In this document: one piece after another, positions 1 to 52,473 of the stretch
How the letters are laid out: each line of letters opens with the position of its first letter
Position numbering within the stretch: position 1 is the stretch's first letter
DNA from: a virus
IMG/VR virus record: IMGVR_UViG_3300045257_000172
Span: 1-52,473 of that record
Strand: one strand, 5' to 3'
Length of the DNA: 52,473 bases
The notes under the pieces: generated by a model
Database searches by the model: none
What the model was told of the DNA's origin: nothing
What the model saw: only the letters and a program-made list of their open reading frames with translations
Program-made: the position numbers and the translations under genes

Positions 1-184
1 GGGGCCGCTAGTCCCCGAAACCAACAAATTGTTATCTACGATTTTACCGACTGGATCACCTTTGATAACATTGAGTTTACCAGATTTTACTGGGATATAA
101 CCACTAACAGTTACCCGGTAGCAATAGTTCAAATCGGGACTGGCAGCACTAACGCCCAGAATCAGGGTACAAATTGTGACGGGA
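1..184. repeat. Contig-end direct repeat, left copy
   Basis: These 184 bases recur at 52290-52473 with one difference, C at 57 against T at 52346. The difference is synonymous (ATC/ATT, Ile) in the spike gene that crosses the ends. This is the overlap expected when a circular or circularly permuted genome is assembled as a linear contig; it gives a unit genome of about 52,289 bp. A physical terminal repeat is possible but less likely, because it would lie inside a coding frame. Confidence 0.93.
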
Positions 185-3100
185 TAGTATTTACAAACTG
201 CCTGTTTCACAACTGGACCCACGGTTCAGCTGCCTCTGGCGTGTCTAACATGCGGGCATGTATATGTGGGGATACCCACTACAACTCAGGGCGTGGTGGC
301 ATGGATAACTGTCTGGTTGATGGTTGCACGTTTGACGGAACGCTCACTAGTGACAGTGGCGAAGTAATCTACGCTTTCCCCAATATCAGGAACTCTTTTG
401 CAACCAAGATGGTCAACTACGGGCTTATCGGAAATGCACCGGGACACACAATGGAGGTTAGCGGATGCGATTTCGGGAATTACGTCAATCCATTTGATGG
501 AGGCGGCGATCACGGAAACCTGGTTGAGAGCCTGACTACTGGACCGTGCTTGGTTCACCACAACAAGTTGCACGACTTTAACGCTGGGGGAATTACGGTT
601 TTTCTAGCTGGAACTGCTAGCGGAACAACACAGATTTATAATAACCTCGTCTGGAATGTTGTGCCTGTTCCGTTTCAGTTCGATACCCGGACTAGCGGCC
701 CCCCGTGTGTTGCCAACATGTACAACAATACAGTGATTTATGGGGGGAACTTAACTACCACCACTGGCACTGGACCCTTCACTCTCACCGCCAAAAACAA
801 TCACTTGATTGGTTTAACTGGGTTGGGCCCTGCTTCCGGCACGAATAATCTTTTCCAGAGTTCAGCCGCAGCCACCGCCGCTGGTTACACTCTAAGCAAT
901 CTATATCAACCTACCAGCGGTTCTTCCCCCACGGTTGATGCTGGAACAAGTAGTGTAAATCCACCTGTCGCTGATGACATTATGGGGGTAAGCCGCCCAC
1001 AGGGGAACGGGTATGATATTGGGGCCTATGAACGGTTTACTGGGAGCGTATCACCCCCGGTCATTACCAGCTCCCTAAGTGCCTCAGGAACGGTTAACAC
1101 GGCTTTTAGCTACTCTGTCACTGCCAGCAACTCCCCGGTGTCCTACGGGGCTTCTCCGCTGCCCACGGGCCTATCTATAAACACGTCTAGTGGTGTAATA
1201 AGCGGTACACCGACCGGGTCAGGCGCAACCACCGTTGTTATCAGTGCTACTAACGCCGGGGGAACAGGGACAGCTAACCTCTCTTTAACCATTCAGTCCG
1301 GCACAGCAGCGCCTACCATCACCAGCCCGCTGACTGCTAACGGTACAATCAACGTGGCATTCAGTTACACTATTACCGGGAGTAACACTCCAATCAGTTA
1401 CGGAGCTTCGGGGTTGCCAGCAGGGCTATCGGTTAACACTGGTACTGGGGTTATCAGCGGTACGCCTACTACCGCTGCTACAACTAATGCCACGATCAGT
1501 GCTACCAACGGCACCGGTACAGGTTCGGCTACCCTCACCATAACAATCCGGTCAGCCCAACAGACTTTTCAGACTACGGTAACCAACACTGGTGAGACTT
1601 ATTTCATCAACGGTATCCGCACCCACGACCAGAACCCAATGGCTGGCACCCTCCCAAACATTCGAACGGTACAGGCCACATTTGATGACTCTGGGGGTAC
1701 GGTAAGTAACTGGAGTTATCCAGGTGGTGTAGCTTATTCCCCTACTCGTCAAACTAATGAGTTTGTAGCCGCGCTCCCGGCATGGAAAGCGAAGGGGGTG
1801 CTGGCTTGCACTCTCAACTTCCAGGGTGGGCAACCCAAGCCCTCCGTGATACCAAATAACAGCGGGTTTAACGCTGATGGTTCTATGAAAGGCCCATACC
1901 AAACCCGGATGGATCAGGCTATCCGGGGGCTGGACGCCAACGGGATGGTAGCAATCGTTGGGTACTTTTACTTTGGTCAGACTAGTGTGTTCGGAGGGAA
2001 CGAGACAGCGATTAAAGCTGCGGTGACCAATGCCACGAACTGGATCGTAACCCAGGGGTACACCAACGTAATCATCGAGATCGCCAACGAGATTGATACC
2101 GCAAGTTATCCGGCAATTATTCAACCGGGAAGGATCAACGAGCTTGTCTCAATCATTAGAGGGATTAAACCCGGTCTTAAGGTAAGTTGCAGTTTCGTGG
2201 GTGGCACTGTGCCAAGCCCGGCCATGGCAGTCCTGTTCGATTATATCTTGGTTCACGGGAACAACCAGACATCCAACTGGGTCACTAACACGATCAACAC
2301 TGTCCGTGGGTACAATTTAAGTAAACCCATCGTGGTAAATGAGGATTCGGCTACGATAGCTAACTTTGATGCTGCGGTAGCAGGCCATGCAAGCTGGGGG
2401 TTCCACCCGCCCTATGCTAACGATTACGTCACGGGTTTCCAAGGCCCACCGACTAACTGGAGTAACATTACTGAAACGGTTAAATCCTCGTTCTTTACCG
2501 AGGTAGCCAATTTCCAGTCACAGATCACGCCTCCTCCACCACCCCCGAATAATCCAGTTATACAGGTAGCACCTACCAGTCTGGACTTCGGGTTTGTACC
2601 AGTTGGTTCAACCCCGACCGATAAAACCTTTACCGTATCAAACACTGGGACTGGAACTTTAACTGGATCAGCCAGCGTCACTTCCCCGGTATTCTCGGTT
2701 GTTGGTACGGCTACTTACAGCCTTACCTCTGGGCAAACAGCTCAAATCACAATCCGGTACCGGCCAACCGTTAAAGCGAGTGACTCAACCAATGCCATAT
2801 TTACCGGAGCAGGAGGCTTGGTCAGGCAGGTGCTAGGGAAAGCCTACCCACTTCTTCCTGCCCTCCAGTTTAATCCTGACGATGGATTGGTGCTGTCCCC
2901 CTTCGTAATCAACTCCTCTACCCACACCGTTTCGCAGTCCCTAGAAATAGACGTACCCGGGAACGCTGGGCAGGTCAGGGCTGGGTTTACTGCTCCGACT
3001 ACAGGTGCATACACCATATCGGCGCTGGTCAATGCTCCCAATGATGCCAGTAATTCACTCTACATCGGGATAGATACCATCCCTACTGAACCAGCAAATG

Positions 3101-4488
3101 TCTGGGACATCGTAGCGTTTACTACCGGGTACAACCCCCGTGTTGCCTGCTGGCGTGGAACGGGCACCTTCGATAACCCGCAGTTTAACCCCAACACCTG
3201 GAACCTGAATGCGGGTCAAACGTATCAACTCATAATCTGCGGGCGTGAGGCGAACGTTGGGCTAGGGCAGATCACGATTAACCCTCCTGCAACTGCCCCC
3301 ACGATCCCTCCTCCACCCGCAGCTCCTACCACTCCTGTACCAGCCAATAACGCTACCGGGATTGGAGTTAACAGCGCTATTGCCTGGAGCGAGACCGACA
3401 CGGTGAGTGGGTACAATATTTTCCTGGGAACCGTTAATCCACCGCCCCAGGTGGCAAGTGGAGGACAGAACAAGTTCTATAACCCACCGTCCCAACTCCA
3501 GTATAACGCTCAGTACTTTGCCAAGGTTAATGCGTTCCTGAATTGGAGTAGCCAGGGGCAGAGCGGAACCGTTACGAGCCCTGATTTAGCCTGGAGCTTT
3601 ACCACTGCCCAGTTCATTCCCCCGCCCCCGCCGGCCCTGATAATCGGTTCCCTTACCGCTGTTCCAGATCACGGGAACGCACCTTTAACCACCCAGTTTA
3701 CGGTTGTCTTTAACGGTGGCACAGCACCTTATACCTACGATTGGGATTTTGGGGATGGGTCAACCCATGGCACCACGATCAATCCTAGCCACGTTTACAC
3801 TACGGCAGGCACTTTTACTGCCATGGTTACAATAAACGATTCTGGGGGCCAATCTGCTCACGCAACGGTCAGTGTGAGCACAACCGTAACTCCGCCACCC
3901 CCGACTCTCACTGTTTCAATTAACGCTAATCCAACCTCTGGGCGGGTGGGTGACACGGTTATATTCACTTCCACGGTCACCGGGGGAGCTGCCGGGACTA
4001 AGACTTACGCCTGGGATTTTGGGGATAGCGGTACTTCCACAGCCTCCAACCCGGCACACACTTATAATTCGGTTGGTAACTTCACTGCTAAACTCACTGT
4101 CACCGATAGTGGGAGTAACTCTGCTTCTGCTACCCAGATAATCACAATAGCTGTGTTCCCGCCGCAGGTGGCATGGTCAAGTCCAACTGATAACTCAACT
4201 TCGACCGCTCCGGCAACGTTCTCGCTAGGGGCAGTAGCTATAGCGAACGGCGGGGCTACTATCACCGGGGTATCGTTTTACCGGGGCGGTTCAACTCTTA
4301 TCCATGCAGCGACACTGGTGGCAGGAGTGTGGACGTATTCTTGGACTGGGGTAACGGCTGGGGATTACACTTTAACCGCAAAAGCCACCGATAGTTCGGC
4401 AGCAACCTCAACCTCGACCCCGATTATGGTCCATGTGCTAACCGCTGGCACCGTGCAGGTTCCACAGCTAATTTACGTTACCCCATGA
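1..4488 (+). CDS. Giant receptor-binding protein with glycoside-hydrolase-like, Ig, PKD domains (3' part)
   Basis: The frame is open from base 1 with no stop and continues from 51978-52289 across the contig ends, giving a single protein of 1599 residues. I therefore do not accept the GTG at 241 as the start. In full-length numbering, residues 1 to about 450 are Gly/Asn/Thr-rich and look like a right-handed beta-helix. Two He_PIG-type Ig repeats follow at about 463-620, each with a GVISGTPT motif. A TIM-barrel-like module at about 625-945 carries IEIANEID (N800-E801) and VVNEDS (E885), the pattern of the acid/base and nucleophile of clan GH-A hydrolases. After a poly-Pro linker come an ASPM/SPD-2/Hydin-like domain (LDFGFVPVGST), a fibronectin-III-like domain, two PKD domains (YDWDFGDGS; YAWDFGDSG) and a last Ig-like domain. 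It probably binds and may cleave a host surface glycan. The next gene overlaps its stop (ATGA). Confidence 0.85.
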   Translation, partial: GAASPRNQQIVIYDFTDWITFDNIEFTRFYWDITTNSYPVAIVQIGTGSTNAQNQGTNCDGIVFTNCLFHNWTHGSAASGVSNMRACICGDTHYNSGRGGMDNCLVDGCTFDGTLTSDSGEVIYAFPNIRNSFATKMVNYGLIGNAPGHTMEVSGCDFGNYVNPFDGGGDHGNLVESLTTGPCLVHHNKLHDFNAGGITVFLAGTASGTTQIYNNLVWNVVPVPFQFDTRTSGPPCVANMYNNTVIYGGNLTTTTGTGPFTLTAKNNHLIGLTGLGPASGTNNLFQSSAAATAAGYTLSNLYQPTSGSSPTVDAGTSSVNPPVADDIMGVSRPQGNGYDIGAYERFTGSVSPPVITSSLSASGTVNTAFSYSVTASNSPVSYGASPLPTGLSINTSSGVISGTPTGSGATTVVISATNAGGTGTANLSLTIQSGTAAPTITSPLTANGTINVAFSYTITGSNTPISYGASGLPAGLSVNTGTGVISGTPTTAATTNATISATNGTGTGSATLTITIRSAQQTFQTTVTNTGETYFINGIRTHDQNPMAGTLPNIRTVQATFDDSGGTVSNWSYPGGVAYSPTRQTNEFVAALPAWKAKGVLACTLNFQGGQPKPSVIPNNSGFNADGSMKGPYQTRMDQAIRGLDANGMVAIVGYFYFGQTSVFGGNETAIKAAVTNATNWIVTQGYTNVIIEIANEIDTASYPAIIQPGRINELVSIIRGIKPGLKVSCSFVGGTVPSPAMAVLFDYILVHGNNQTSNWVTNTINTVRGYNLSKPIVVNEDSATIANFDAAVAGHASWGFHPPYANDYVTGFQGPPTNWSNITETVKSSFFTEVANFQSQITPPPPPPNNPVIQVAPTSLDFGFVPVGSTPTDKTFTVSNTGTGTLTGSASVTSPVFSVVGTATYSLTSGQTAQITIRYRPTVKASDSTNAIFTGAGGLVRQVLGKAYPLLPALQFNPDDGLVLSPFVINSSTHTVSQSLEIDVPGNAGQVRAGFTAPTTGAYTISALVNAPNDASNSLYIGIDTIPTEPANVWDIVAFTTGYNPRVACWRGTGTFDNPQFNPNTWNLNAGQTYQLIICGREANVGLGQITINPPATAPTIPPPPAAPTTPVPANNATGIGVNSAIAWSETDTVSGYNIFLGTVNPPPQVASGGQNKFYNPPSQLQYNAQYFAKVNAFLNWSSQGQSGTVTSPDLAWSFTTAQFIPPPPPALIIGSLTAVPDHGNAPLTTQFTVVFNGGTAPYTYDWDFGDGSTHGTTINPSHVYTTAGTFTAMVTINDSGGQSAHATVSVSTTVTPPPPTLTVSINANPTSGRVGDTVIFTSTVTGGAAGTKTYAWDFGDSGTSTASNPAHTYNSVGNFTAKLTVTDSGSNSASATQIITIAVFPPQVAWSSPTDNSTSTAPATFSLGAVAIANGGATITGVSFYRGGSTLIHAATLVAGVWTYSWTGVTAGDYTLTAKATDSSAATSTSTPIMVHVLTAGTVQVPQLIYVTP

Positions 4489-5492
4489 GTGCTCAATCAG
4501 GTAGAGATGGTTTACTAGACGCGGAATTACAGTCGAATCTCGACGGGAAGGGCCACAAGATCCTCAACACCGATCTGAGTGATGCCACCAACACCTTTCC
4601 TCCAGCCACTCTTCCACTGATACCGCATACCACTGCGGCACTAGCCGGGGATGGAGCGGGGCAAGTGGTGGACACCAAGGTAACGCTCACCGCTCCGGCC
4701 ACTGGATCAACCCTGACCGTAGCTGATGGTAAAACCTTCACTGTCTCCAACACCTTAACCCTTGCCGGAACCGATACTTCCACGCTCAACGTTGGCACAG
4801 GCGGGACTTTAGGGACTGCTGCCTACACTCCTACCGGGAACTACGCAACCGCAGCGCAGGGGACCAAGGCGGACGCAGCAGGGGCCATTACGGGCCTGGT
4901 TAAATCCAATGGAAGCGCCACCTTTGCTGCTGCGGTAGCCAAGACTGACTACTGGGATGGTAGCGTGTTCTTGGCTGGGGGTAGTCATGCCAAGGGACTG
5001 GTTCCTGATCCGGGTGCAGGAGGAGGTACGACTAAGTACCTACGTGAAGATGGCATCTTCCAGGTTCCGCCAGCTTCCAGTGGAGTCACGATTGCGGTTA
5101 CAACCAATGTTATTAAGGGGGATGGTGCCGGGGGTGGAGTTGCTGCTACTCCCGGTACCGATTACTTGGTTCCCAGCACGGCGTTAACCCGGCTCACAGC
5201 GGCTACAGTTGTCCTCTCCGGTGCCACCCCGGCAATTAACTGGGCATCTTCCACCGGGTTTAGTTGGACGCTTTCAGCCAATTCTACTCCTACTTTCAGT
5301 AATTCAACTGATAACTGGGATATTACGATTGCTGTTACTAACGGTGCTTCGTGGACCCTGACTTGGCCAACCGTACAATGGCAGGGGGCAGCAGGACAAC
5401 CTACCCAGAGCGTGAGTGGGAAAACAGATTTCTGGGGGTTTAAGAAAGTCGGATCAATCATTTACGGAGCCGTGAAACAGAACATGGGATGA
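4485..5492 (+). CDS. Tail fibre-like structural protein
   Basis: This 335-residue protein begins at an ATGA overlap with the giant spike gene and ends in an ATGA overlap with the next gene. It is rich in Thr, Gly, Ala and Ser, with an N-terminal segment around LQSNLDGKGHKILN that resembles the start of many fibre proteins. The rest is low-complexity beta-strand-like sequence such as GDGAGQV and KYLREDG, the kind seen in trimeric fibre shafts. The C-terminus (WTLTWPTVQWQGAAGQP to FWGFKKVG) is a recurrent fibre-tip motif in phage and metagenomic virion proteins. No enzymatic motif is visible. Its place in the row of receptor-binding genes supports a tail fibre or accessory fibre role; the exact role is inference. 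Confidence 0.65.
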   Translation: MSAQSGRDGLLDAELQSNLDGKGHKILNTDLSDATNTFPPATLPLIPHTTAALAGDGAGQVVDTKVTLTAPATGSTLTVADGKTFTVSNTLTLAGTDTSTLNVGTGGTLGTAAYTPTGNYATAAQGTKADAAGAITGLVKSNGSATFAAAVAKTDYWDGSVFLAGGSHAKGLVPDPGAGGGTTKYLREDGIFQVPPASSGVTIAVTTNVIKGDGAGGGVAATPGTDYLVPSTALTRLTAATVVLSGATPAINWASSTGFSWTLSANSTPTFSNSTDNWDITIAVTNGASWTLTWPTVQWQGAAGQPTQSVSGKTDFWGFKKVGSIIYGAVKQNMG

Positions 5493-8655: not shown

Positions 8656-8861
8656 GAAACTCCAACTACGTCTACTGCGAGAACAACAGGTGCATGAAGA
8701 AGTTCCTATTAACGTCCCCGGGTGACCTGATGGAGATGCGGGTGATAGACCTGCACGGCAACGAGGTAGCCCCACGCCGGGACGGATTTATCTGCCCCAC
8801 CTGTCAGAAACTATATGCTGAAGTGTCCCACGAAGAGGAGGAAGGAAGCGAATGGCTGTAG
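8652..8861 (+). CDS. Zinc-ribbon protein, 69 aa
   Basis: I place the start at the ATG at 8652, which overlaps the preceding stop (ATGA), rather than at an upstream codon at 8619. The 69-residue product has C-x4-C in CENNRCMKKF and C-x2-C in ICPTCQKLY, a four-cysteine zinc ribbon, and ends in an acidic tail (EVSHEEEEGSEWL). A small structural or regulatory zinc protein is likely. The GGAGGAAGGAAG stretch near its end is also the ribosome-binding site for the next gene. Confidence 0.6.
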   Translation: MRNSNYVYCENNRCMKKFLLTSPGDLMEMRVIDLHGNEVAPRRDGFICPTCQKLYAEVSHEEEEGSEWL

Positions 8862-10222
8862 GCGGACTTACATTTTTAGCGGCTAAACCTATCCTCTGCA
8901 CGGTGGTAGAGAACGGTGTGGACCAGAATGACCCCAGGGTGATGGGTAGAACCAACGAAGCTATCCACGCCATCCTCGACGAAATCCTGACCGTGAATGG
9001 GTGCATGACGGTGGACATCCAGGCTGAAGGCCCCAATGGGGATGAACTTTTTCTCCCGAAGGAACTGGAAAACGCCATCGAAGCCGAAGTAATCGGGGCA
9101 ACTGTGAACGGGAGCAGTGATGTAACGAGGGGGTTCTATGACATCGTGACCCAGTTCAGTTACGCCGATCCCTCAGCCGCAGGTGATAACCCGCTGGTAG
9201 ACCTATTTCTTCAACCTGACCCCAATGATGCTTCAATCCTGCGGAGGAAGTACAGGTATCCTGGGTTAAGCCCCAATGCCACGGTAAGGGTGACCGGAGC
9301 CAAACGCTACGTCCCTATCACCCAGGATGGAGATTATTTGATTGTTCAAAACCTCCTGGCCATAAAAGACATGATTCAGTCTATCTGGCGGAAGGAGAAC
9401 AACGACCCGCAGGGGAGTGAGATCCTGCACAAAGCCTGCATGGAACGGTTACAGGCTGAGGTGAAGAAACATCAGCTTGATCCTCGAAACGCCATGCGCC
9501 GGAAGGCTGAGTACTACAAGGACCTTGAAACCTTCCCCGAGCATACCTTTGGCTGGATGCGAGCTAATCTTGCCCTGGAAGTACCATCCCTGATGAACCG
9601 AGGGAAACTGGATATATCCTTTGTCCTTAACATGGCCGAGAAACGGCTGATGCAACGGGGGCTGTGGAAAGATTGTATCCAAGAGTACACCATGCAGGTG
9701 GTGGGCGGGGAAGTGGCTTTCCCGAAGGAAGTTCAATCGGTTCTGGCGGTAGACATGAACGGGTGCCCGATACCGATTAGGAGCGTGTTTTTTGAGTACC
9801 TGGAGAACGGCCCCGGGATGTCAACTCTTGACCTGACCCAGATCCCTTCCCCGTGGATACGAGGGGCTGGGCACGCGATGTTGGTAGACCAGGGGGACGA
9901 AGATTTCCAGGGAGGCAGACGAAGGGTGTACAAGCTAGTTGCACCCACGGCCCAGAATCAGACGATAACTGCGGCATGCAAACTCAGGTGGGTAGAACGT
10001 AAACCCACGGACCAACTTGCAATCAAGAACTTCGAAGCCCTCAGAAACATGATTCAATGTATCATGAACGAGGAGAACGAGAAATACCAGGAAGCACAGG
10101 CTGCTGAGGCTGCTGCGTTCAGAGTGCTGGAACAAGAACAACAGGAGTACCTGGATGGGATACGCCATGTGGTGCATATCCAGACAGCGGGCTTTGGACT
10201 AGGGAACGTGGGTACAATTTGA
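8852..10222 (+). CDS. Head-tail adaptor/tail tubular A-type protein
   Basis: This 456-residue protein has mixed alpha/beta sequence with no enzyme motif. Its C-terminal region has a long helical stretch (KNFEALRNMIQCIMNEENEK, then an Ala/Glu/Gln-rich coiled segment) of the type found in podovirus gp11/tail tubular A and other head-tail connector proteins. It is paired with the nozzle-type gene upstream and internal virion genes downstream, the order expected for T7-like tails. A strong GGAGGAAGGAAG precedes the ATG, inside the end of the zinc-ribbon gene. Assignment is by context and composition. Confidence 0.55.
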   Translation: MAVGGLTFLAAKPILCTVVENGVDQNDPRVMGRTNEAIHAILDEILTVNGCMTVDIQAEGPNGDELFLPKELENAIEAEVIGATVNGSSDVTRGFYDIVTQFSYADPSAAGDNPLVDLFLQPDPNDASILRRKYRYPGLSPNATVRVTGAKRYVPITQDGDYLIVQNLLAIKDMIQSIWRKENNDPQGSEILHKACMERLQAEVKKHQLDPRNAMRRKAEYYKDLETFPEHTFGWMRANLALEVPSLMNRGKLDISFVLNMAEKRLMQRGLWKDCIQEYTMQVVGGEVAFPKEVQSVLAVDMNGCPIPIRSVFFEYLENGPGMSTLDLTQIPSPWIRGAGHAMLVDQGDEDFQGGRRRVYKLVAPTAQNQTITAACKLRWVERKPTDQLAIKNFEALRNMIQCIMNEENEKYQEAQAAEAAAFRVLEQEQQEYLDGIRHVVHIQTAGFGLGNVGTI

Positions 10223-17180: not shown

Positions 17181-17705
17181 CTACGATTTTCGCCATGCGA
17201 TGAAAAGCCTGCTGTCCACCAAGCTAGCCCCCTTGGTCATTTCAACTGTGGTAGATTGGAACCCTTGGGGCAACACTCGCTCTAAGGCGGGTACCACATC
17301 CCGGGACAGCACATCCTCCACTATCCCTATCCCATCATCACGGAGCATTGGGAGATAGCTTTGGATGAAGTATTGTTGGTCGCTGGGCACGTGAGAGCCG
17401 TCATCAATCAGAATATCGTACGGTGGGTTGAACCTACTCAGGGTTTCATCCGAGTAAGCGTTCCCGATAATAAACCTGAACCCCTCGGGCTTAACTCCGT
17501 TGTCTACCAAGTCCACTGCTATCAGATCACCGTACGGGAAATACTCAGCCCATGTCCGCATGGAATTACCGAATTGTAGCCCCACCTCTAGCAACCGGAC
17601 CGGCTTGGTGCGCCATTTGTGGAACAGCAGGTCATACAACTCGCAATAGTGGTGGTTGGTAGCCTTATCGGTCTGGCACTTTATACCAATGGCGTGCAAG
17701 GTCAT
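17181..17705 (-). CDS. SAM-dependent sugar O-methyltransferase-like enzyme
   Basis: I start this at the ATG at 17705, which overlaps the stop of the GDP-fucose synthase gene (ATGA); the longer frame would intrude into that gene. The 174 residues open with CQTDKATNHHYCELYDLLF. SAM motif I is LLEVGLQFGNS (38-48), and DDGSH (101-105) carries the likely metal/catalytic residues. TDK-x-x-x-H-x-Y followed by LLEVG and DDGSH is typical of the macrolide/deoxysugar O-methyltransferases (demethylmacrocin O-methyltransferase and cephalosporin-hydroxylase-like group). Coupling to a fucose synthase gene suggests methylation of a deoxyhexose or of a glycan carrying it; the substrate is inferred. Confidence 0.75.
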   Translation of the reverse strand: MTLHAIGIKCQTDKATNHHYCELYDLLFHKWRTKPVRLLEVGLQFGNSMRTWAEYFPYGDLIAVDLVDNGVKPEGFRFIIGNAYSDETLSRFNPPYDILIDDGSHVPSDQQYFIQSYLPMLRDDGIGIVEDVLSRDVVPALERVLPQGFQSTTVEMTKGASLVDSRLFIAWRKS

Positions 17706-18607
17706 AGGGATGCCTTGTAGTGCTCGTACACTGCCCGTATTCCCTCTTCCAGCCCAATCTTGGGCTCCCACCCCAGCCCCCGTATCTTAGACGAATCTAG
17801 GAGCTTCCTTGGCGTTCCGTTGGGCTTATCTGTGTCCCATTCAATCACCCCATGGTACCTTGCTGCGGTTGCTATCGCTTCAGACAGAACATGAGTTGTT
17901 ACTTCGGTACCGCTTCCAATGTTGATTGGTTCAGGGCTGGAGTACTTCTTCAAACACAGGAGGCAGGCTCTAGCCAAATCGTCTACATGGAGCCATTCAC
18001 GCAGGGCTAAACCGTTACCCCACAGATGCACCTTACCGCCTTCAACCTTTGCCTTATGAAACTTGGCTATCATGGCGGGGAGAGCGTGCCCGGTCTCAGG
18101 GTCAAAGTTATCGTTTGGGCCGTACAGGTTACATGGCATGACCGAGATAAAATCACACCCGTACTGTTGCCGGTAGGCTTGGCAGAGCTTTATCCCGGCA
18201 ATCTTGGCTACCGCATACCACTGGTTGGTGGGTTCCAGGGGGCCAGTAAGTAGATATTCTTCCTTGATTGGTTGTGGACAATCCCGGGGGTAAATACAGG
18301 AACTCCCCAGGAATAGGAGCTTTTGGGAGAAATCAGCCGCTGCTGAAATAACGTTGTTCTGGATACGCAGGTTCTCCAGCAGGAAATCTACCGGATATGC
18401 GCTGTTCGCCCCGATCCCCCCAACCTTGGCCGCAGCAAGCACTACTTGGTTAGGACGATAATAGTTGAAATAATCCCTAACCCTCAGTTCGTTAGTTAAA
18501 TCCAGTGCTGCCCGATCAACGGTCAGCACCGTGCAATCTTGCCCTTCTAATGCCCGGCAGATGGCGCTCCCCACCATCCCCTTGTGTCCGGCTACAAAGA
18601 TTTTCAT
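17702..18607 (-). CDS. fcl: GDP-L-fucose synthase
   Basis: This 301-residue short-chain dehydrogenase matches GDP-4-keto-6-deoxy-mannose epimerase/reductase along its length. The NADP-binding motif is GHKGMVGS (7-14). The catalytic segment GSSCIYP (101-107) supplies the active-site Ser and Cys104, followed by YAVAK (Y131, K135) and H174 in TGHALPAMI. The segments NLYGPNDNF and LREWLHVDDLARA are family hallmarks. It produces GDP-L-fucose from GDP-4-keto-6-deoxy-D-mannose with NADPH. No GDP-mannose 4,6-dehydratase (gmd) is present, so the substrate would have to come from the host. It overlaps both neighbours by 4 bases inside the glycan cassette. Confidence 0.93.
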   Translation of the reverse strand: MKIFVAGHKGMVGSAICRALEGQDCTVLTVDRAALDLTNELRVRDYFNYYRPNQVVLAAAKVGGIGANSAYPVDFLLENLRIQNNVISAAADFSQKLLFLGSSCIYPRDCPQPIKEEYLLTGPLEPTNQWYAVAKIAGIKLCQAYRQQYGCDFISVMPCNLYGPNDNFDPETGHALPAMIAKFHKAKVEGGKVHLWGNGLALREWLHVDDLARACLLCLKKYSSPEPINIGSGTEVTTHVLSEAIATAARYHGVIEWDTDKPNGTPRKLLDSSKIRGLGWEPKIGLEEGIRAVYEHYKASL

Positions 18608-19637: not shown

Positions 19638-20077
19638 ACTTCCCTACTGATAACGTCTGGTCTTGGGTTTGTAACCTTGGGCATGTAGTCTGGATAAACC
19701 GATACTGGTACACCTGCATGTTCGGATAGTAATTGTTTGGCCCTGTTTGTTGCTTCCTCGGGAGTGGCTCCAATTCCCCGTGCCTGAAGTCCGTAATCAG
19801 GACTATTCCAAACATGCTCGTTCGGTGGTTCCTCGCTGTGATCCCAGTTTCTTTTCACGACGCGGACTCCGTAATCTTTAATGCTCGATATTTCGTGCTC
19901 GAAGTAAGGCTTAAACTTATTATAGAAAACAGGATCAACCTGATATTTTATAATCTGGTAGCTAGATGGATCGTGGTAACCCTTGGCTAGCCCGATCTCT
20001 GCCATTTCCCTGCTAGAAAATACCCCTAGTACATTATCTCCTTCGTAGTCTGGCCGAACCAATAAAAACATTTTCAT
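19634..20077 (-). CDS. Hypothetical protein of the glycan cassette
   Basis: This 147-residue protein has two halves. Residues 1-50 (MKMFLLVRPDYEGDNVLGVF then SSREMAEIGLA) look like a small alpha/beta domain found in many phage hypothetical proteins, in which a V-x-S-S-R-E-x-A-E motif follows strand 2. Residues 95-147 have a helix-forming segment (GATPEEATNRAKQLLSEHAG). I do not recognise a function. It overlaps both flanking genes by 4 bases. Confidence 0.5.
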   Translation of the reverse strand: MKMFLLVRPDYEGDNVLGVFSSREMAEIGLAKGYHDPSSYQIIKYQVDPVFYNKFKPYFEHEISSIKDYGVRVVKRNWDHSEEPPNEHVWNSPDYGLQARGIGATPEEATNRAKQLLSEHAGVPVSVYPDYMPKVTNPRPDVISREV

Positions 20078-20748
20078 GATAAGATAAACTCCATCTCCGA
20101 TTTAGATTTGACCCCATGGATCACGTCTATGCCACTGCGGTAGGCTTCCCGGGCTTGCATCAGTGTCCCCGGGATATCAAAGGAGTTTTGGCTGAACTCG
20201 CTCCAAAGGTTGTCCTGGACCGTTTGGTTCAAGCGTTCGCACACCAGCCCGAAAAACACATCAGGGGATGATTCAGGCGTGGAAGGTTGTCCGCGTCCCC
20301 GGGTGCAGATACCCTCCGAGATTACCTTTCTCCCTTCCTCGATGAACCTCTCGGCAAACTCACGGTGGAACAACCAAGGATTATGATAAAAGGAGTTGGC
20401 TTTACTCCCCCAGGTGGAGCTTCCGGCCCGATGAGAGGCTACGGCGTGTTCCATGGCTTGGTATCTGATATGATTAAAAAACAGGCAGTCGTACTCGGCT
20501 ACCAGCAGGTGTTCATGGTCGCTGGCTAACCCTATCTCCAAAGTGTTCAGTAGCCTCTCGGGCAAATGACTGGCGTCGATATACGAGTCCTTGCCGCAAA
20601 CAAATGAAACAAAACCTGCCGGTACCCAACAATGCCCACCCTCAGTAGTAATCAGCCATACATCGGTTGTCCCGCTATTAGGAACGTACTTCCAATGGCG
20701 TTGCAATGTTTCATTCCCCCCGGGGTACGTTTGTAAGAGCAGGAGCAT
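20074..20748 (-). CDS. Glycosyltransferase-like protein
   Basis: The 224-residue protein has a Rossmann-like layout: MLLLLQTYPGGNETLQRHW, a strand HLLVAEYDCLFFN (with EYDC in the position of a DxD-like metal site), then NPWLFHREFAERFIEEGRKV and a C-terminal helical part. These resemble small GT-A type glycosyltransferases of phage and bacterial capsule clusters. The start ATG shares one base with the stop of the two-domain transferase (TAATG), and the end overlaps the next gene. The function is inferred from context; the DxD motif is not canonical. Confidence 0.55.
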   Translation of the reverse strand: MLLLLQTYPGGNETLQRHWKYVPNSGTTDVWLITTEGGHCWVPAGFVSFVCGKDSYIDASHLPERLLNTLEIGLASDHEHLLVAEYDCLFFNHIRYQAMEHAVASHRAGSSTWGSKANSFYHNPWLFHREFAERFIEEGRKVISEGICTRGRGQPSTPESSPDVFFGLVCERLNQTVQDNLWSEFSQNSFDIPGTLMQAREAYRSGIDVIHGVKSKSEMEFILS

Positions 20749-22475
20749 TATTTGAGGATTGGGGCCGCTTTCAGTTGCCGGATGATCCGTGCTTTCGCCA
20801 ATGGACTAGTAAACCGTGCCTTAATCTCCTCCATTGGATCAGGGGTGTAATACACAACTTGTCCATTCCCAGTGGAGGTAGTTTGGGTAGGTGCGGGGTC
20901 TACGGATGGACGCTGGGCCGCTGATACCGGACCATCCGCACCTCCCAAAGTTTGAGCGGGCGGGACGCTACTCCCGCTCGCCATCCCCGACGAGAGCGCC
21001 AATAACTGACGATCATCGGTTCCTGCGTGTCTGCTTTCCACGCCGCCGCTCAAAATCTTCTCCCACTCCTCGATTGGGATAGGGTTATGACTCCACCTCT
21101 GGTCCACCGTCAGGGTAGGCCAATCTTTTTCTTCTGTTTCGGTTGTGTTTACCCAAATGAATTTCTCTCGGTGGTACTCGTAGGCGTAAAACCCTATGCA
21201 ATTAAATTCGCTAAACTCACGGTACGGTTGGCTCATCACGTACTGCTCTATCGGTACCCGGTGCCGGGTAACACAGAATTTCCTGAACTCATCGTACAAC
21301 CACCGGGGAAAGAGGAACGGGAACCGGCGCATAAACTCAAACTCGGGTGGTTTACCTAGAAACCGTTCCATGACGTGCCGCCAAGCTTGTTCTTCGTTGG
21401 GGTGAGCTTGATCTATCGGGGTAATCATCCAAACAAACTTCCCGTCCTTTAAGTAGATACCGGGGGTTACGGGCTTGGTAAAAATAGTGTCTGAATCAAT
21501 GTGCAGTATCCAATCCGCATCACTGAACGTGTCGGCGTTGAGTTTGAATATCTGCTGGGAAAGGTAGTTATCCTGGTTAGCGGATCCTTCTCCGTACTCA
21601 ACCCTGGTCTGCCATTCAACTTCAGGGTATGCTTGGGAAGGGCTGGATGATATAACAACCGTGTTGCGGAACCCTTGGGCAAAGGTCTTGATTGATCGGA
21701 GGCAGTACTCCAGCCAAGGGTAATCCTTGGGGTAGGTTTTAATAAAGATGTCTGCTACCTCAGGTTTGGGGGGCGCAACCTGCGCCTTGCCTTTCTTGCG
21801 TTCCCTTAAGAAATCTATCAGCGTCCCGCTTTTATCGGCATGAAACAGGACACAATCAGTGGGAAGTTGAGCCAGGAGATTGTCTACCTCACCCTGGTTA
21901 GCAAACGGAGGATGTTTCCACCTGTGAGCAATTAACCGGGTTTGTTTCATTTTGGGCACAATCTGGTCAGCAGCGAAAACGTCCCAGGCTATGTCAGTAG
22001 CCATTACCGCTGCCCCGGCATGATCCACCACCATCCCTGGATAGACCGCTATCCCTGACATGTGGGCTGGAACATCTTTCACGTTTACAAAGTCCCCCAA
22101 GAACGGTTTACGGGGTTCAGCGTCGTATTCCTTGGCTAGTGCTGCTACCCACCCTGATTTGAGGGGGACTACATCCGCTTCAAGCCATAACCAGGGCTGA
22201 GGATTAGTCATTTGCACTCGTTTAGCTGCTTTAACGAATATCCGGTTGGGAGCCAACGGCCATCCGTCGAAACGTTCAGTCATCATCTCGATTTCCACCG
22301 ATTCAAATACCATTGAGAGATTATGCTTGATGGCCCGGTTATTGTTCGGATGCACTCTATCATCGGTTATTATCAGAGCGTGATGGCCGGGGTTGCGCCC
22401 AAGATCGACTATCCAATAGGACAGTTTGACCGCTAAATCTTGATCTACGGGGCTAACGGGGTAAGCGATTAACAT
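20748..22475 (-). CDS. Two-domain glycosyltransferase
   Basis: This 575-residue protein appears to join two glycosyltransferase-like modules. Residues 1-230 run from MLIAYPVSPVDQDLAV to a strand PWLWLEADVVPLKSGW, with LEADVVP in the place of a metal-binding acidic motif. Residues 240-460 start DIFIKTYPKDYPWLEYCLRS and contain WILHIDSDTIFTKP, a clear DxD (DSD) motif, followed by FEFMRRFPFLFPRWL. This second module looks like the DUF6492-type glycosyltransferase group. A Ser/Pro/Gly-rich linker (about 475-530) and a short basic C-terminal helix (LAKARIIRQLKAAPILK) follow. It opens the glycan cassette and overlaps the preceding gene by 7 bases. Acceptor and donor are unknown. Confidence 0.7.
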   Translation of the reverse strand: MLIAYPVSPVDQDLAVKLSYWIVDLGRNPGHHALIITDDRVHPNNNRAIKHNLSMVFESVEIEMMTERFDGWPLAPNRIFVKAAKRVQMTNPQPWLWLEADVVPLKSGWVAALAKEYDAEPRKPFLGDFVNVKDVPAHMSGIAVYPGMVVDHAGAAVMATDIAWDVFAADQIVPKMKQTRLIAHRWKHPPFANQGEVDNLLAQLPTDCVLFHADKSGTLIDFLRERKKGKAQVAPPKPEVADIFIKTYPKDYPWLEYCLRSIKTFAQGFRNTVVISSSPSQAYPEVEWQTRVEYGEGSANQDNYLSQQIFKLNADTFSDADWILHIDSDTIFTKPVTPGIYLKDGKFVWMITPIDQAHPNEEQAWRHVMERFLGKPPEFEFMRRFPFLFPRWLYDEFRKFCVTRHRVPIEQYVMSQPYREFSEFNCIGFYAYEYHREKFIWVNTTETEEKDWPTLTVDQRWSHNPIPIEEWEKILSGGVESRHAGTDDRQLLALSSGMASGSSVPPAQTLGGADGPVSAAQRPSVDPAPTQTTSTGNGQVVYYTPDPMEEIKARFTSPLAKARIIRQLKAAPILK

Positions 22476-43020: not shown

Positions 43021-43029
43021 AGGAGTTTG

Positions 43030-43629
43030 ATGCACCAACGAACAGGCGAGTCTAACGAGGATTACCGAATCAGGTGTAATATCTATCTCGCTGGTTGGCG
43101 TGTTAGGAATCCCGAGAAGCAGGCTGCGATAAACCGTAGGAGCATCGAGAAGAATTGGGATAAGGTTCAGGCTTCTAAAAAGAAGCGCAGGGAAGAAAAG
43201 AAGGAAGAGATTTCCGCCTATCAATCTCAATACTGGCAGGACAACAAGGTTGAGTTGGGAAAATATCGAAGGGATTGGGCGAGGGAAAAGTTTAAGACTG
43301 ATATTGGGTTTAGAATCCTGACCAATCTTCGGCAGCGGTTAAAGTCAGCTATCAAGCGGAAACACCAACGCAAGGCACCTAAAACAACCGAACTGATTGG
43401 GTGCTCTGCACAATTCTTGAAGGGATATTTGGAGGCGAAGTTTGAACCTTGGATGTCGTGGGCGAACTACGGTGAATGGGAAATCGACCATATCATTCCG
43501 TGTTCAAAGTTCGATTTAACCGATGCTCGCCAACAGCTTGTGTGTTTTCATTACACGAATTTACAACCTCTCCGAAAGAGGGAAAATCAGTCGAAAGGGA
43601 ACAAGATTATCCAATTCAAGGCGGCTTGA
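43030..43629 (+). CDS. HNH homing-type endonuclease
   Basis: ATG at 43030 is preceded by GAGGAG. The 199-residue product has a long basic helical N-terminal half (KKKRREEKKEEISAYQSQYW). The nuclease core follows: WEIDHIIPCSKFDLTDARQQ (DH at about 152-154), then CFHYTNLQPLRKRENQSKGNK, with the asparagine and final residues of the beta-beta-alpha metal finger. This matches free-standing HNH endonucleases that spread as mobile genes in phages, often beside capsid genes. Confidence 0.75.
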   Translation: MHQRTGESNEDYRIRCNIYLAGWRVRNPEKQAAINRRSIEKNWDKVQASKKKRREEKKEEISAYQSQYWQDNKVELGKYRRDWAREKFKTDIGFRILTNLRQRLKSAIKRKHQRKAPKTTELIGCSAQFLKGYLEAKFEPWMSWANYGEWEIDHIIPCSKFDLTDARQQLVCFHYTNLQPLRKRENQSKGNKIIQFKAA

Positions 43630-48421: not shown

Positions 48422-49210
48422 ATGATTGCTCCCTGGTATCAACCTCAACCTAATCGTGGGCGTGGTCCGGGTGGCCCGACTCCTACTCCAACTCCGATTG
48501 ATGGGACTGATCCGGGTGGATTGCCGTGGGGTGAACCGACACCGATCCCCACTCCAAGGCCAACGGATAATCGGGCGATAGGACCGGGGATGCCGTTAGG
48601 CTTCGGTGGTAACCCCGGAATGTCATTAGGGGGCGTTAATCCCGGGTATAATTACTACGATGCCGGGAATGGAATGACCTACGTCTACGATCACAACTGG
48701 AACTATGTTGGCACCCATAACCCAATGCAGGCACAGGCAATGGGCGGCGCAATGGGGGGTGGGGGTGGCGGCAGGGGGATAGGAGCTGGTCCCGGATTTC
48801 CTGGTGCCGGTGGTCCTGACCCTGGAATTTGGGGCCCTGGTGTTGATCCTTACCCAACTGTGACCATTGGTAATCCGTTCGCTGGTGCCACACCTGGGAC
48901 TTATCCGGGCATGGGTGGCCCCGGTGGTGGCGGCCCTTTTGCTGGAGCTACGCCCGGAACTTATCCAGGTATGAGTCCAGGTGGTGGCGACCCTGGCGGC
49001 GGCAGTCCTGGGTTTAACGGTCCTTCTGCTGCTCCTAGTGCCCCCTGGTACACAGCCGGACCATATCCTGGCGGGGCTGCTAATCCTCAAAACCCAGGCT
49101 ATGTAGCTCCTGGGGTAGGCCCGCAGAGTGCCCCTTCCGACTTCGCTCCCGGGTCCGGGTTTAGTACAACTCTTGGTGGTGGATTCCAGTTAAACGCCAG
49201 GAACATATGA
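48422..49210 (+). CDS. Gly/Pro-rich collagen-like protein
   Basis: 262 residues with very high Gly and Pro content: PTPTPTPIDGTDPGG, then poly-Gly (AMGGGGGGRG) and a repeated PFAGATPGTYPGM unit (twice, 60-base period). Short Tyr-rich islands (GYNYYDAGNGMTYVYDHNWN) occur. It resembles surface or fibre linker proteins with extended, flexible structure. No catalytic motif. Stop overlaps the start of the vestigial spike N-terminus. Confidence 0.55.
   Translation: MIAPWYQPQPNRGRGPGGPTPTPTPIDGTDPGGLPWGEPTPIPTPRPTDNRAIGPGMPLGFGGNPGMSLGGVNPGYNYYDAGNGMTYVYDHNWNYVGTHNPMQAQAMGGAMGGGGGGRGIGAGPGFPGAGGPDPGIWGPGVDPYPTVTIGNPFAGATPGTYPGMGGPGGGGPFAGATPGTYPGMSPGGGDPGGGSPGFNGPSAAPSAPWYTAGPYPGGAANPQNPGYVAPGVGPQSAPSDFAPGSGFSTTLGGGFQLNARNI
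48875..48994 (+). repeat. Tandem 60-base repeat in the Gly/Pro-rich gene
   Basis: Two in-frame units (48875-48934, 48935-48994) encode PFAGATPGTYPGM followed by a Gly-rich spacer. Third positions differ, so the duplication is not recent. Confidence 0.7.
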
Positions 49211-49242
49211 GCCAGCCGATTGACACCATCGTAACTTCGTAA
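49207..49242 (+). pseudogene. Truncated N-terminal copy of the next spike gene
   Basis: The frame MSQPIDTIVTS ends at TAA after 11 residues. Four bases later the spike gene begins MSQPIDTTVTL. Nine of the first ten residues agree, while the DNA differs in most third positions (AGC/TCA, CCG/CCA, ATT/ATA, GAC/GAT). The ATG overlaps the Gly/Pro-rich gene stop (ATGA). This is a remnant of a former spike gene or a retained mini-leader peptide. Confidence 0.7.
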
Positions 49243-49246
49243 TCTT

Positions 49247-51922
49247 ATGTCACAGCCAATAGATACCACGGTCACCCTTGAGGATCAGTTTGCCGTAGTT
49301 GACCCGATTTCATCGGCCCCACCCGGGTCAGATATTGAGGCGTACGTTGAAGAGGGGGTGGTACAGCTTCCTTTAGGTGGACAGGTGGTGACGGTCACCT
49401 TCCTTACCCCCAAGGTATCACCCGATTACCAGTTCGATGTGCGGGACATCTACAACATGGTGGACGCAACCCCGCTCGTCATTGATTGTATCCTAACCAA
49501 CTTCACTGTTACCGGGTTTGAGATCACACTCAGTGCTTCACCGGACACCGGAAACTACTATTTCAGGTGGAAGGTCCGTATCCCGACTGCAATCCAATCA
49601 GGGATAACCATTACCGCTCAGGTAGCAGGGATAGCGGGCGGATCGGTGCAGGAAGTGTTTGCTACCGGGAATGATGGGGTTGACCTCACTGTTGGTGGTG
49701 ACGCTACCAAGTTACCCAATGTTATTGCTCATCTAATTGATGGCGGAATACCGCTCGCCAAGCTGGCTGAAACAGTCGTTACCGGACCGGTGTTAACCCC
49801 GACTGGGGCACAGACCGTTACCAACAAACTGCTGGATGGGAACAATAATACCTTTCAGAACATCGGGTTAGCGTCCCTGATTGGGGACGGGATTATTGCC
49901 CAGAACCTTACTGACCCAAATAATGACCAGGGAATTATATGGGATAACGGTACTAAGTTATTCCGGTTCGCTGGTTCCCCGACTAACAGGGGGCTGGCTA
50001 AGGATGTTTACATTTCGACTCGGGGCGACGGCAATGGGGTAGGCACGTTAGACGATCCATTTGATGGCAGCACATCGGTATTGTTTGATGCGATCATGGC
50101 CGACAACACAAAGACTCCGGTCAACACCAATATCTATCTGTGTGCCGGAACCTTTTTAACTAAAGGTTTTACTGTCAGGACCGGGTGGAAGTTTCACCTG
50201 ACTCCACAAACCACTCTAAAGCTGGATGTTTTTACTGCTGGCGATGCGGCTGCTTTGGGTGCTCCCAAGATTGTTTCCATGTTTGGGGGAACGAATAACA
50301 CGCTAGTTCAGGATGTTCTTATCGAGGGCGGAATTTGGGACTTGAACATGCAGAATCAAACCCAAGCCCTGTGCCCTGCTGCTATTCAGGTGGTAGCCGA
50401 TGGGTTCACCGCCAGGAACATGAAGGTGATTAACTTCGGTAACACCAGTCCGACTAATGCCGAATGTTTCGTCCTTGGGGTATTTAGTAACGGTGCCAGG
50501 GACGGTATAATTCATAAACGCGGAGTGCTTTGGGATAATATCGAGATAACGCAACCCGCAAGCGGTGTTACCAATGTTGCCACGCTCAGTTTGACTAACA
50601 CAAACGGCGGACAAGCCGTAGTTAATGAAGCCGCCTTGAGTAGCGGATGGTTCGAAGGTGTGACGATTCGCAACTGTTACATTCACGATATAACCTTCAG
50701 TGATGCCGTGGCGGTAGCGTGTATAAATCTTGGGGGCTGGGTGAAGGGATTCCATGGGCACAATAACCGCTTCGCTCGTATCACCGGGAATAATGCCCGG
50801 TACGGTTATTATCTTGATACTGGATCAGTTCAGGACGTGAAGATCGAGGACGGTCAGGCCGATACTATAATGTCTGCGGTCAACCTTAATAGCGGCACAG
50901 GCTGGACCCAGAACAATATCAGCATCAAAAAACAAATGGTCGTGAGTTCCAATTTTATTCCCATTGCCGTCAACAGCCAGACTGGAACAACTTCGAATGT
51001 TTACTTCGAATCCAACACCATTATTGCCCCCGGAGGTTCGCCTGCGACAGGGATAGCTGCGGTTGGTATAACCAACTCCAACTTCCTCAACAACACGATT
51101 GATAGTAGTTCGGCTAACGCGATCTTTATAAGTGGCGGCAATGTAAGTCAAAGGTTTAACAACCGGCAGCTTGATGGCACACCGGTAAGCGGAGAAACAG
51201 GCCTGGGTGATTTGATCCAAGTCCAGACCACCTCCGTGACCACTGGCACTGTTGTCATGCTCGCTAATAAATCTGTCCTTAGAATCACTGCTGCATTGAC
51301 TGGTGCGTTACAGATAACGTTACCTCTCGCATCGTCTATCCCCGCTGGCAATTCAATCACCATTCTTGACCCAGGTGGGTTTTCATCAGACGTAAACGTT
51401 TTATTTGTAGCTCGGTCGGGGAGCGATACTATAAATGGTAGTACATCACCTATTATCGCACTCATCGGACAAGGTTCCCAGGAGCTTATTTCCGATGGGG
51501 TGTCTAAGTGGACGTTTGGCACCAGTTATATTGTAAGTCCTGCAAATCTTTATCTGGAGGGCGGTAATGCAACCGTGATGCGTACGGCTGGTACTGACCG
51601 ATGGTATGTTAATAGTAGCGGTCATGTCATAACCGTTGTCGATAACGCGTACAACTTAGGGGAGTCTGCTCACCGGTTTAAGGACGCCTTTTTTGGCGGG
51701 AACGTTAACGCCGGGGGTCATATTTTGGCTGAAGGAGCCAATGTTGTTCTTGGCACTTCTACCGGAAGTCAGATTGCTACGGTAGGCGGAGCATCGGGGC
51801 AGAAATTGGCGGTTTGGGGTAAAACTCCAATCGTTCAACCAGTGCTGGCAACAGGGGCCGGTCATACGGCGGACGACATAATCACCGTTCTTCAAAATAT
51901 TGGATGGGTTAGGCAAAGCTAA
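49247..51922 (+). CDS. Beta-helix tail spike/receptor-binding protein
   Basis: 891 residues. The first 130 form beta-rich modules (VVTVTFLTPKVSPDYQFDVR, then YYFRWKVRIPTAIQSGITIT), probably the virion-binding part. After KDVYISTRGDGNGVGTLDDP (about 250) a right-handed parallel beta-helix begins, shown by Asn/Thr/Gly-rich rungs such as NMKVINFGNTSPTNAECF, VTIRNCYIHDITFSDAV and SNFLNNTIDSSSANAIFISG up to about 640. The C-terminal third is a separate beta domain followed by GESAHRFKDAFFGGNVNAGG, like trimerising fibre tails. Spikes of this kind bind or cleave surface polysaccharides; no catalytic residues can be named. The TAA overlaps the next ATG. Confidence 0.75.
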   Translation: MSQPIDTTVTLEDQFAVVDPISSAPPGSDIEAYVEEGVVQLPLGGQVVTVTFLTPKVSPDYQFDVRDIYNMVDATPLVIDCILTNFTVTGFEITLSASPDTGNYYFRWKVRIPTAIQSGITITAQVAGIAGGSVQEVFATGNDGVDLTVGGDATKLPNVIAHLIDGGIPLAKLAETVVTGPVLTPTGAQTVTNKLLDGNNNTFQNIGLASLIGDGIIAQNLTDPNNDQGIIWDNGTKLFRFAGSPTNRGLAKDVYISTRGDGNGVGTLDDPFDGSTSVLFDAIMADNTKTPVNTNIYLCAGTFLTKGFTVRTGWKFHLTPQTTLKLDVFTAGDAAALGAPKIVSMFGGTNNTLVQDVLIEGGIWDLNMQNQTQALCPAAIQVVADGFTARNMKVINFGNTSPTNAECFVLGVFSNGARDGIIHKRGVLWDNIEITQPASGVTNVATLSLTNTNGGQAVVNEAALSSGWFEGVTIRNCYIHDITFSDAVAVACINLGGWVKGFHGHNNRFARITGNNARYGYYLDTGSVQDVKIEDGQADTIMSAVNLNSGTGWTQNNISIKKQMVVSSNFIPIAVNSQTGTTSNVYFESNTIIAPGGSPATGIAAVGITNSNFLNNTIDSSSANAIFISGGNVSQRFNNRQLDGTPVSGETGLGDLIQVQTTSVTTGTVVMLANKSVLRITAALTGALQITLPLASSIPAGNSITILDPGGFSSDVNVLFVARSGSDTINGSTSPIIALIGQGSQELISDGVSKWTFGTSYIVSPANLYLEGGNATVMRTAGTDRWYVNSSGHVITVVDNAYNLGESAHRFKDAFFGGNVNAGGHILAEGANVVLGTSTGSQIATVGGASGQKLAVWGKTPIVQPVLATGAGHTADDIITVLQNIGWVRQS

Positions 51923-51978
51923 TGGCTCGCACCTTCTACATCTCCTCCCAGAGCGGGAACGACTCCAACAACATCTAA
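51922..51978 (+). pseudogene. Truncated N-terminal copy of the giant spike gene
   Basis: The frame MARTFYISSQSGNDSNNI stops at TAA after 18 residues, and the same TAATG begins the giant spike gene MARKFFISFSSGNDANNG. MAR-x-F-x-IS-x-x-SGND-x-NN is shared though most codons differ. It is either the remnant of a replaced spike or a short leader translated in coupling with both neighbours. Confidence 0.72.
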
Positions 51979-52473
51979 TGGCCCGCAAATTCTTCATTAG
52001 CTTCTCATCCGGCAACGATGCTAATAACGGTACGTCTACCGCTACAGCGTGGCAGCGGCATCCGTTTATGTCTCGGCCCGGTTCGTTACCGTGGAGTGGT
52101 GTCTACACTCATCAAGTTGGGGATCAGTTTGTATTCAAGGGGGGTGATACTTGGGATACGACTTGTTTTTTTGCAAAACACGGTTTCGCGATCAAGGCTG
52201 GTGGCTCCCAGGCTACTCCTGATAAGTACATGGTGGACAAGACTTGGTTTACCGGGAGTTCGTGGACTAGACCTATTTTTGATAACGGTGGGGCCGCTAG
52301 TCCCCGAAACCAACAAATTGTTATCTACGATTTTACCGACTGGATTACCTTTGATAACATTGAGTTTACCAGATTTTACTGGGATATAACCACTAACAGT
52401 TACCCGGTAGCAATAGTTCAAATCGGGACTGGCAGCACTAACGCCCAGAATCAGGGTACAAATTGTGACGGGA
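51978..52473 (+). CDS. Giant receptor-binding protein, 5' part
   Basis: ATG at 51978 shares a base with the preceding TAA. The first 104 residues (MARKFFISFSSGNDANNGTS, then a Trp/Pro-rich stretch) are the opening of pectate-lyase-like beta-helix spikes, where SGND-x-N-x-GTS leads into the first rung. At 52290 the frame enters the contig-end repeat and continues in phase at base 1, ending at 4488: 1599 residues in all. See the entry at 1-4488 for the domains. Confidence 0.85.
   Translation, partial: MARKFFISFSSGNDANNGTSTATAWQRHPFMSRPGSLPWSGVYTHQVGDQFVFKGGDTWDTTCFFAKHGFAIKAGGSQATPDKYMVDKTWFTGSSWTRPIFDNGGAASPRNQQIVIYDFTDWITFDNIEFTRFYWDITTNSYPVAIVQIGTGSTNAQNQGTNCDG
52290..52473. repeat. Contig-end direct repeat, right copy
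   Basis: Repeats bases 1-184 with T at 52346 in place of C at 57. See the left copy. Confidence 0.93.

Follow-up and report, generated by a model that had tools for sequence, protein, structure and literature searches.

Known spike gene systems and layout of the locus

Spike gene turnover sets the host range of phages, and the joins themselves are rarely caught. In the modular receptor-binding proteins of E. coli O-antigen phages and Klebsiella phages, a conserved N-terminal anchor is combined with an exchanged C-terminal domain (PMC10408124, PMC6872550). Ackermannviridae carry clusters of consecutive tail spike genes whose 5' ends are conserved, and a phage of this family given an extra tail spike gene is reported to have ended with a tsp3 deletion and a tsp4 truncation, or with a tsp4/tsp5 chimera (PMC11414711). 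At the level of translation, termination-reinitiation pairs are marked by overlaps of 1 nt or 4 nt or by very short spacing, and the last 15 nt of the upstream gene are enough for reinitiation (PMC10666635).

The window analyzed here comprises the 52,473 nt of the IMG/VR viral record IMGVR_UViG_3300045257_000172 (positions 1 to 52,473). In this uncultured phage, two neighboring spike genes are each preceded by a tiny frame that repeats the beginning of its own spike. The features of the locus are the following:

48422 to 49210, + strand: upstream Gly/Pro-rich gene of 262 aa, ending in ATGA over the first short frame
49207 to 49242, + strand: putative stump of the 891-aa spike start, an 11-codon ORF reading MSQPIDTIVTS-stop ("MSQ peptide"); its ATG lies over the TGA that ends the 48422-49210 gene
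49247 to 51922, + strand: 891-aa spike (P0001), whose stop shares a base with the ATG of the following short frame at 51922
51922 to 51978, + strand: putative stump of the giant spike N-terminus, an 18-codon ORF reading MARTFYISSQSGNDSNNI-stop ("MAR peptide")
51978 to 52473, + strand: 5' portion of the giant spike gene, starting MARKFFISFSSGNDANNG...; its ATG overlaps the stop of the short frame (TAATG)
52290 to 52473, + strand: terminal repeat of bases 1-184, with one mismatch; the spike crosses the contig ends
1 to 4488, + strand: continuation of the giant spike gene past the contig ends, with He_PIG, Ig-like, and PKD domains and a stop codon overlapping the following ATG at 4485
4485 to 5492, + strand: fiber-like gene of 335 aa after the giant spike, which it overlaps by ATGA

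This locus resembles the modular receptor-binding proteins of E. coli O-antigen and Klebsiella phages (PMC10408124, PMC6872550) in its related N-termini, unrelated bodies, and spike-zone turnover, but differs from them in that the older N-terminus appears to have been left as a separate mini-ORF beside the new gene and that the junction DNA in common amounts to only 8 bp. Like the Ackermannviridae clusters, in which loss or truncation of a neighbor has been seen in the laboratory, it contains successive spike genes conserved at their 5' ends; however, that is a different phage group, and coupled stumps of 11 to 18 codons are not mentioned in the passages considered (PMC11414711). With termination-reinitiation coupling at 1-nt and 4-nt overlaps (PMC10666635), for which a very short upstream coding sequence suffices, it shares the TAATG and ATGA junctions. 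Unlike in that system, the upstream partner here copies the downstream N-terminus, and the coupling is predicted. Literature searches with the terms tried returned no papers on duplicated or deleted fiber stumps. Thus, spike gene turnover itself is well known, whereas stumps so short and so neatly placed are unusual.

Similarity of the short frames to the spike starts

The junction at 51922 reads GC-TAATGG, with one base shared by the stop of the 891-aa spike and the ATG of the mini-ORF, and that at 51978 reads TC-TAATGG, with one base shared by the mini-ORF stop and the ATG of the giant spike. At the other locus, the mini-ORF at 49207-49242 is followed, after a 4-nt spacing, by the ATG of the 891-aa spike at 49247, which begins with MSQPIDTTVTL. 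The overlaps or very short spacing typical of termination-reinitiation pairs are therefore present at both loci.

The short peptides were scored against every start codon of the genome. The MAR peptide reached 63 against the start of the giant spike (self-score, 87) and 19 at the next best site, while the MSQ peptide reached 42 against the start of the 891-aa spike and 22 at the next site. Identical residues amount to 12 of 17 in the MAR pair and 9 of 10 in the MSQ pair. Furthermore, when the window and 16 related contigs were scanned for ORFs copying the N-terminus of the next gene, these two ranked first, followed by out-of-context frames. These scores bear out the initial annotation, which had placed a vestigial spike N-terminus before the giant spike at a TAATG and the same arrangement at a second spike gene.

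At the nucleotide level, the members of each pair differ considerably (18/51 bases in the MAR pair and 10/30 in the MSQ pair; 65 to 67% identity), and the residues shared after Met use different codons in 7 of 11 and 6 of 8 cases, respectively. Neutral simulations with the same number of changes left on average 6.4 identical residues in the MAR pair (of 17) and 4.1 in the MSQ pair (of 10), compared with the observed 12 and 9; the simulated probability of the observed peptide identity was 1.3e-4 for the MAR pair and 6e-6 for the MSQ pair. Since the peptides match beyond the neutral expectation despite the codon differences, the two members of each pair have been under constraint as coding sequence, and this constrained divergence indicates that the pairs derive from diverged relatives and not from fresh tandem copies.

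Identical DNA stretches reach at most 8 bp (CTAATGGC) in the MAR pair and 5 bp in the MSQ pair, too short for a homologous recombination site. Conserved DNA flanking the exchanged part, as in cassette exchange of receptor-binding proteins, is absent here. Recombination at conserved N-terminal anchors, as initially proposed for this locus, is thus not favored.

Comparison with related phages

Related phages were represented by 16 contigs found via the major capsid protein, nearly all at ~55 to 61% identity, and by three more found via the protein encoded at 8852-10222, giving 19 contigs and about 0.78 Mb. Residues 18 to 114 (approximately) of the 891-aa spike form an adaptor domain that matches tail proteins of these relatives (best E value, 4e-10), and this spike carries the N-terminal virion anchor common to the phage group, which was not found in the giant spike. 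The adaptor region is also found in a tail protein of roughly 206 aa in relatives and, by inspection, in an 851-aa spike of contig L090. Among the relatives, the domain apparently occurs twice in one 206-aa protein (L003:15329-15949), and in the window it occurs once, fused to a spike. In the relatives, the adaptor-bearing gene adjoins the next fiber gene by ATGA; in the window, the short frame and the giant spike lie in between.

Tandem pairs of complete fiber genes with homologous N-termini were found in at least nine related contigs. Their junctions are mostly 4-nt overlaps, with a TAATG in L054 and a 1-nt gap in one pair of L067. Full tandem paralogs with overlapping ends are a regular state in this phage group and, plausibly, the starting state for the stumps. 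Additionally, the tail-spike zone turns over among the relatives. A second family of tandem fiber paralogs (MPTLAAPLD... / MPDFPSTL...) is present in L054 (9096-11905, joined by the TAATG), L063, and L067. The gene at 4485 of the window was considered as kin of these paired fibers and discarded, as a profile of the paired fiber N-termini did not find it.

Stumps were absent from the 19 contigs, where candidate searches gave only shadow frames and noise. The relatives contained no full-length version of the lost gene and no intermediate, and a MAR or MSQ start was found in 0 of the 16 related contigs. Direct scans of viral contigs retrieved none related to either spike or to the 588-aa tail protein and nothing with the double pattern of stump plus start; searches of phage records likewise found none. 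With no MAR or MSQ start in the scanned relatives, and the locus carried by none that is sufficiently close, no cluster of breakpoints could be demonstrated, and the viral collection, which may omit near-identical records, contained no variant in which the short frame ran on into a different spike. Hence, the proposed role of the locus as a cassette-swapping site for host-range change found no backing in these data.

Translation signals and origin of the short frames

The starts of the long spikes show no Shine-Dalgarno (SD) duplex (+0.6 and +0.4 kcal/mol), and those of the mini-ORFs show a weak one (-4.3 and -6.0 kcal/mol), a modest contrast given that many genes here lack an SD and that both mini-ORF values lie inside the range of random positions. 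Within this modest extent, SD-less spike starts versus weak SDs at the mini-ORFs fit a selective advantage of having ribosomes terminate at the following ATG, and the downstream spike is probably read by translational coupling to the short frame. RNA folding at the mini-ORFs was nothing special (z, -0.7 and +2.6).

The best explanation, to which we assign a probability of about 60%, is that the mini-ORFs are remnants, kept in frame through translational coupling, of upstream spike paralogs that were lost or replaced. Each mini-ORF would preserve the 5' end of an earlier spike gene, located immediately upstream of the present spike or at its place and having the N-terminus in common with it. 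A tandem paralog pair may have collapsed in frame, removing the body of the older spike, or, alternatively, an incoming diverged spike cassette may have been joined illegitimately behind the first 10 to 17 codons. We infer both the loss event and its order. Downstream spikes that start without their own SD would need ribosomes terminating at their ATG, and for this reason the stump would persist as a neat ORF whose stop lies on that ATG or 4 nt ahead of it. Read in this way, the two similarly built stumps of this genome document spike loss or replacement with the reading chain of the operon intact, and they suggest a rule by which an event persists only if ribosomes still reach the following start.

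It is important to consider that two precise stumps in one genome are more than expected from random loss, which leaves room for a functional role. The mini-ORFs could be leader cistrons under selection in a bicistronic arrangement, carrying the initiation site and delivering ribosomes through their stop to the SD-less spike start, and the copied N-terminus might adjust expression or serve some separate purpose. The identical layout twice in one genome, the stop on or at most 4 nt from the next ATG, the long spike starts without SD, and the protein-level constraint in both pairs agree with such leaders. However, they are missing from all the related contigs examined, coupling alone needs no copy of the spike's own N-terminus, and the RNA fold is unremarkable, so that we consider this reading unlikely. 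If the N-terminal copies did serve as natural leader cistrons, incoming diverged cassettes might be expressed at once by reinitiation, turning the locus into a landing-and-expression platform, an extension that we regard as rather improbable.

The remaining alternatives concern how the repeats arose. Two locus variants joined in tandem by the assembly, or from a strain mixture, could be suspected in a metagenomic contig whose mismatched end overlap sits in the same gene, about 310 bases past the junction; nevertheless, the pattern is seen at two separate loci, every overlap is coding-consistent, and copies of 65 to 67% identity with a longest run of 8 bp give an assembler too little to misjoin, making this artifact improbable. 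A recent tandem duplication of one gene's 5' end, now decaying, would agree with the adjacency and the same orientation of the copies, but it is very unlikely, since change at about a third of the sites with the peptide preserved is hardly expected from neutral decay. Finally, upstream of its start the spike frame stays free of stops at least as far as 51900, as would suit programmed frameshifting from the short frame into the spike; yet no slippery heptamer was seen by eye near the stop, and in the first case (49207) a gap separates the two frames and their offset is different. Together with the score of 63 versus 19 for the next best site, which opposes chance similarity, this makes chance or frameshifting scarcely credible.

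Counterpart of the MAR peptide and the giant spike

A degenerate start pattern (MARx[FY][FY][IV]..SGN[DE]) was scanned in viral contigs and genomes. The pattern had 0 matches in the viral contigs and 6 in the genomes, where one corresponded to a genuine beta-helix gene start and the others to short or odd frames. The convincing bacterial match is a 636-aa Fischerella protein, starting MASTYYVNAETGNDSNNG..., with a Pfam right-handed Beta_helix and otherwise unrelated; the short frame thus does have a counterpart as the start of another protein. Judged by this likeness, the MAR mini-ORF resembles the opening of a beta-helix protein, truncated at the point where a glycine would follow NN. The Fischerella counterpart, the constrained divergence, and the turnover of the spike zone are all in line with the initial annotation of the short frames as scars, understood as N-terminal stumps of spike-type genes.

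The giant spike is so named from its position and domain make-up only. Bases 1-184 equal bases 52290-52473 except for one mismatch, and this 184-bp terminal repeat indicates that the gene continues into 1-4488, for a total of 1,599 aa. The record is classed as linear, and the near-perfect terminal repeat probably reflects a circular or permuted map. The first 165 aa had no match in relatives, phages, or viral contigs. AlphaFold, applied to window 1-1050, gave a pLDDT of 29 and no usable model, and there was no direct match to a beta-helix domain. The part encoded at 1-4488 contains Ig-like and two PKD domains and, by eye, a region resembling a TIM-barrel glycosidase, which is unusual for a phage spike.

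Elsewhere in the window, an ORF that by eye resembles an HNH endonuclease (43027-43629) lies directly after the major capsid gene. Additionally, genes similar, by eye, to an NAD-dependent sugar epimerase and a glycosyltransferase are found at 17702-18607 and 20074-22475 (- strand), and sugar modification by the phage is possible.
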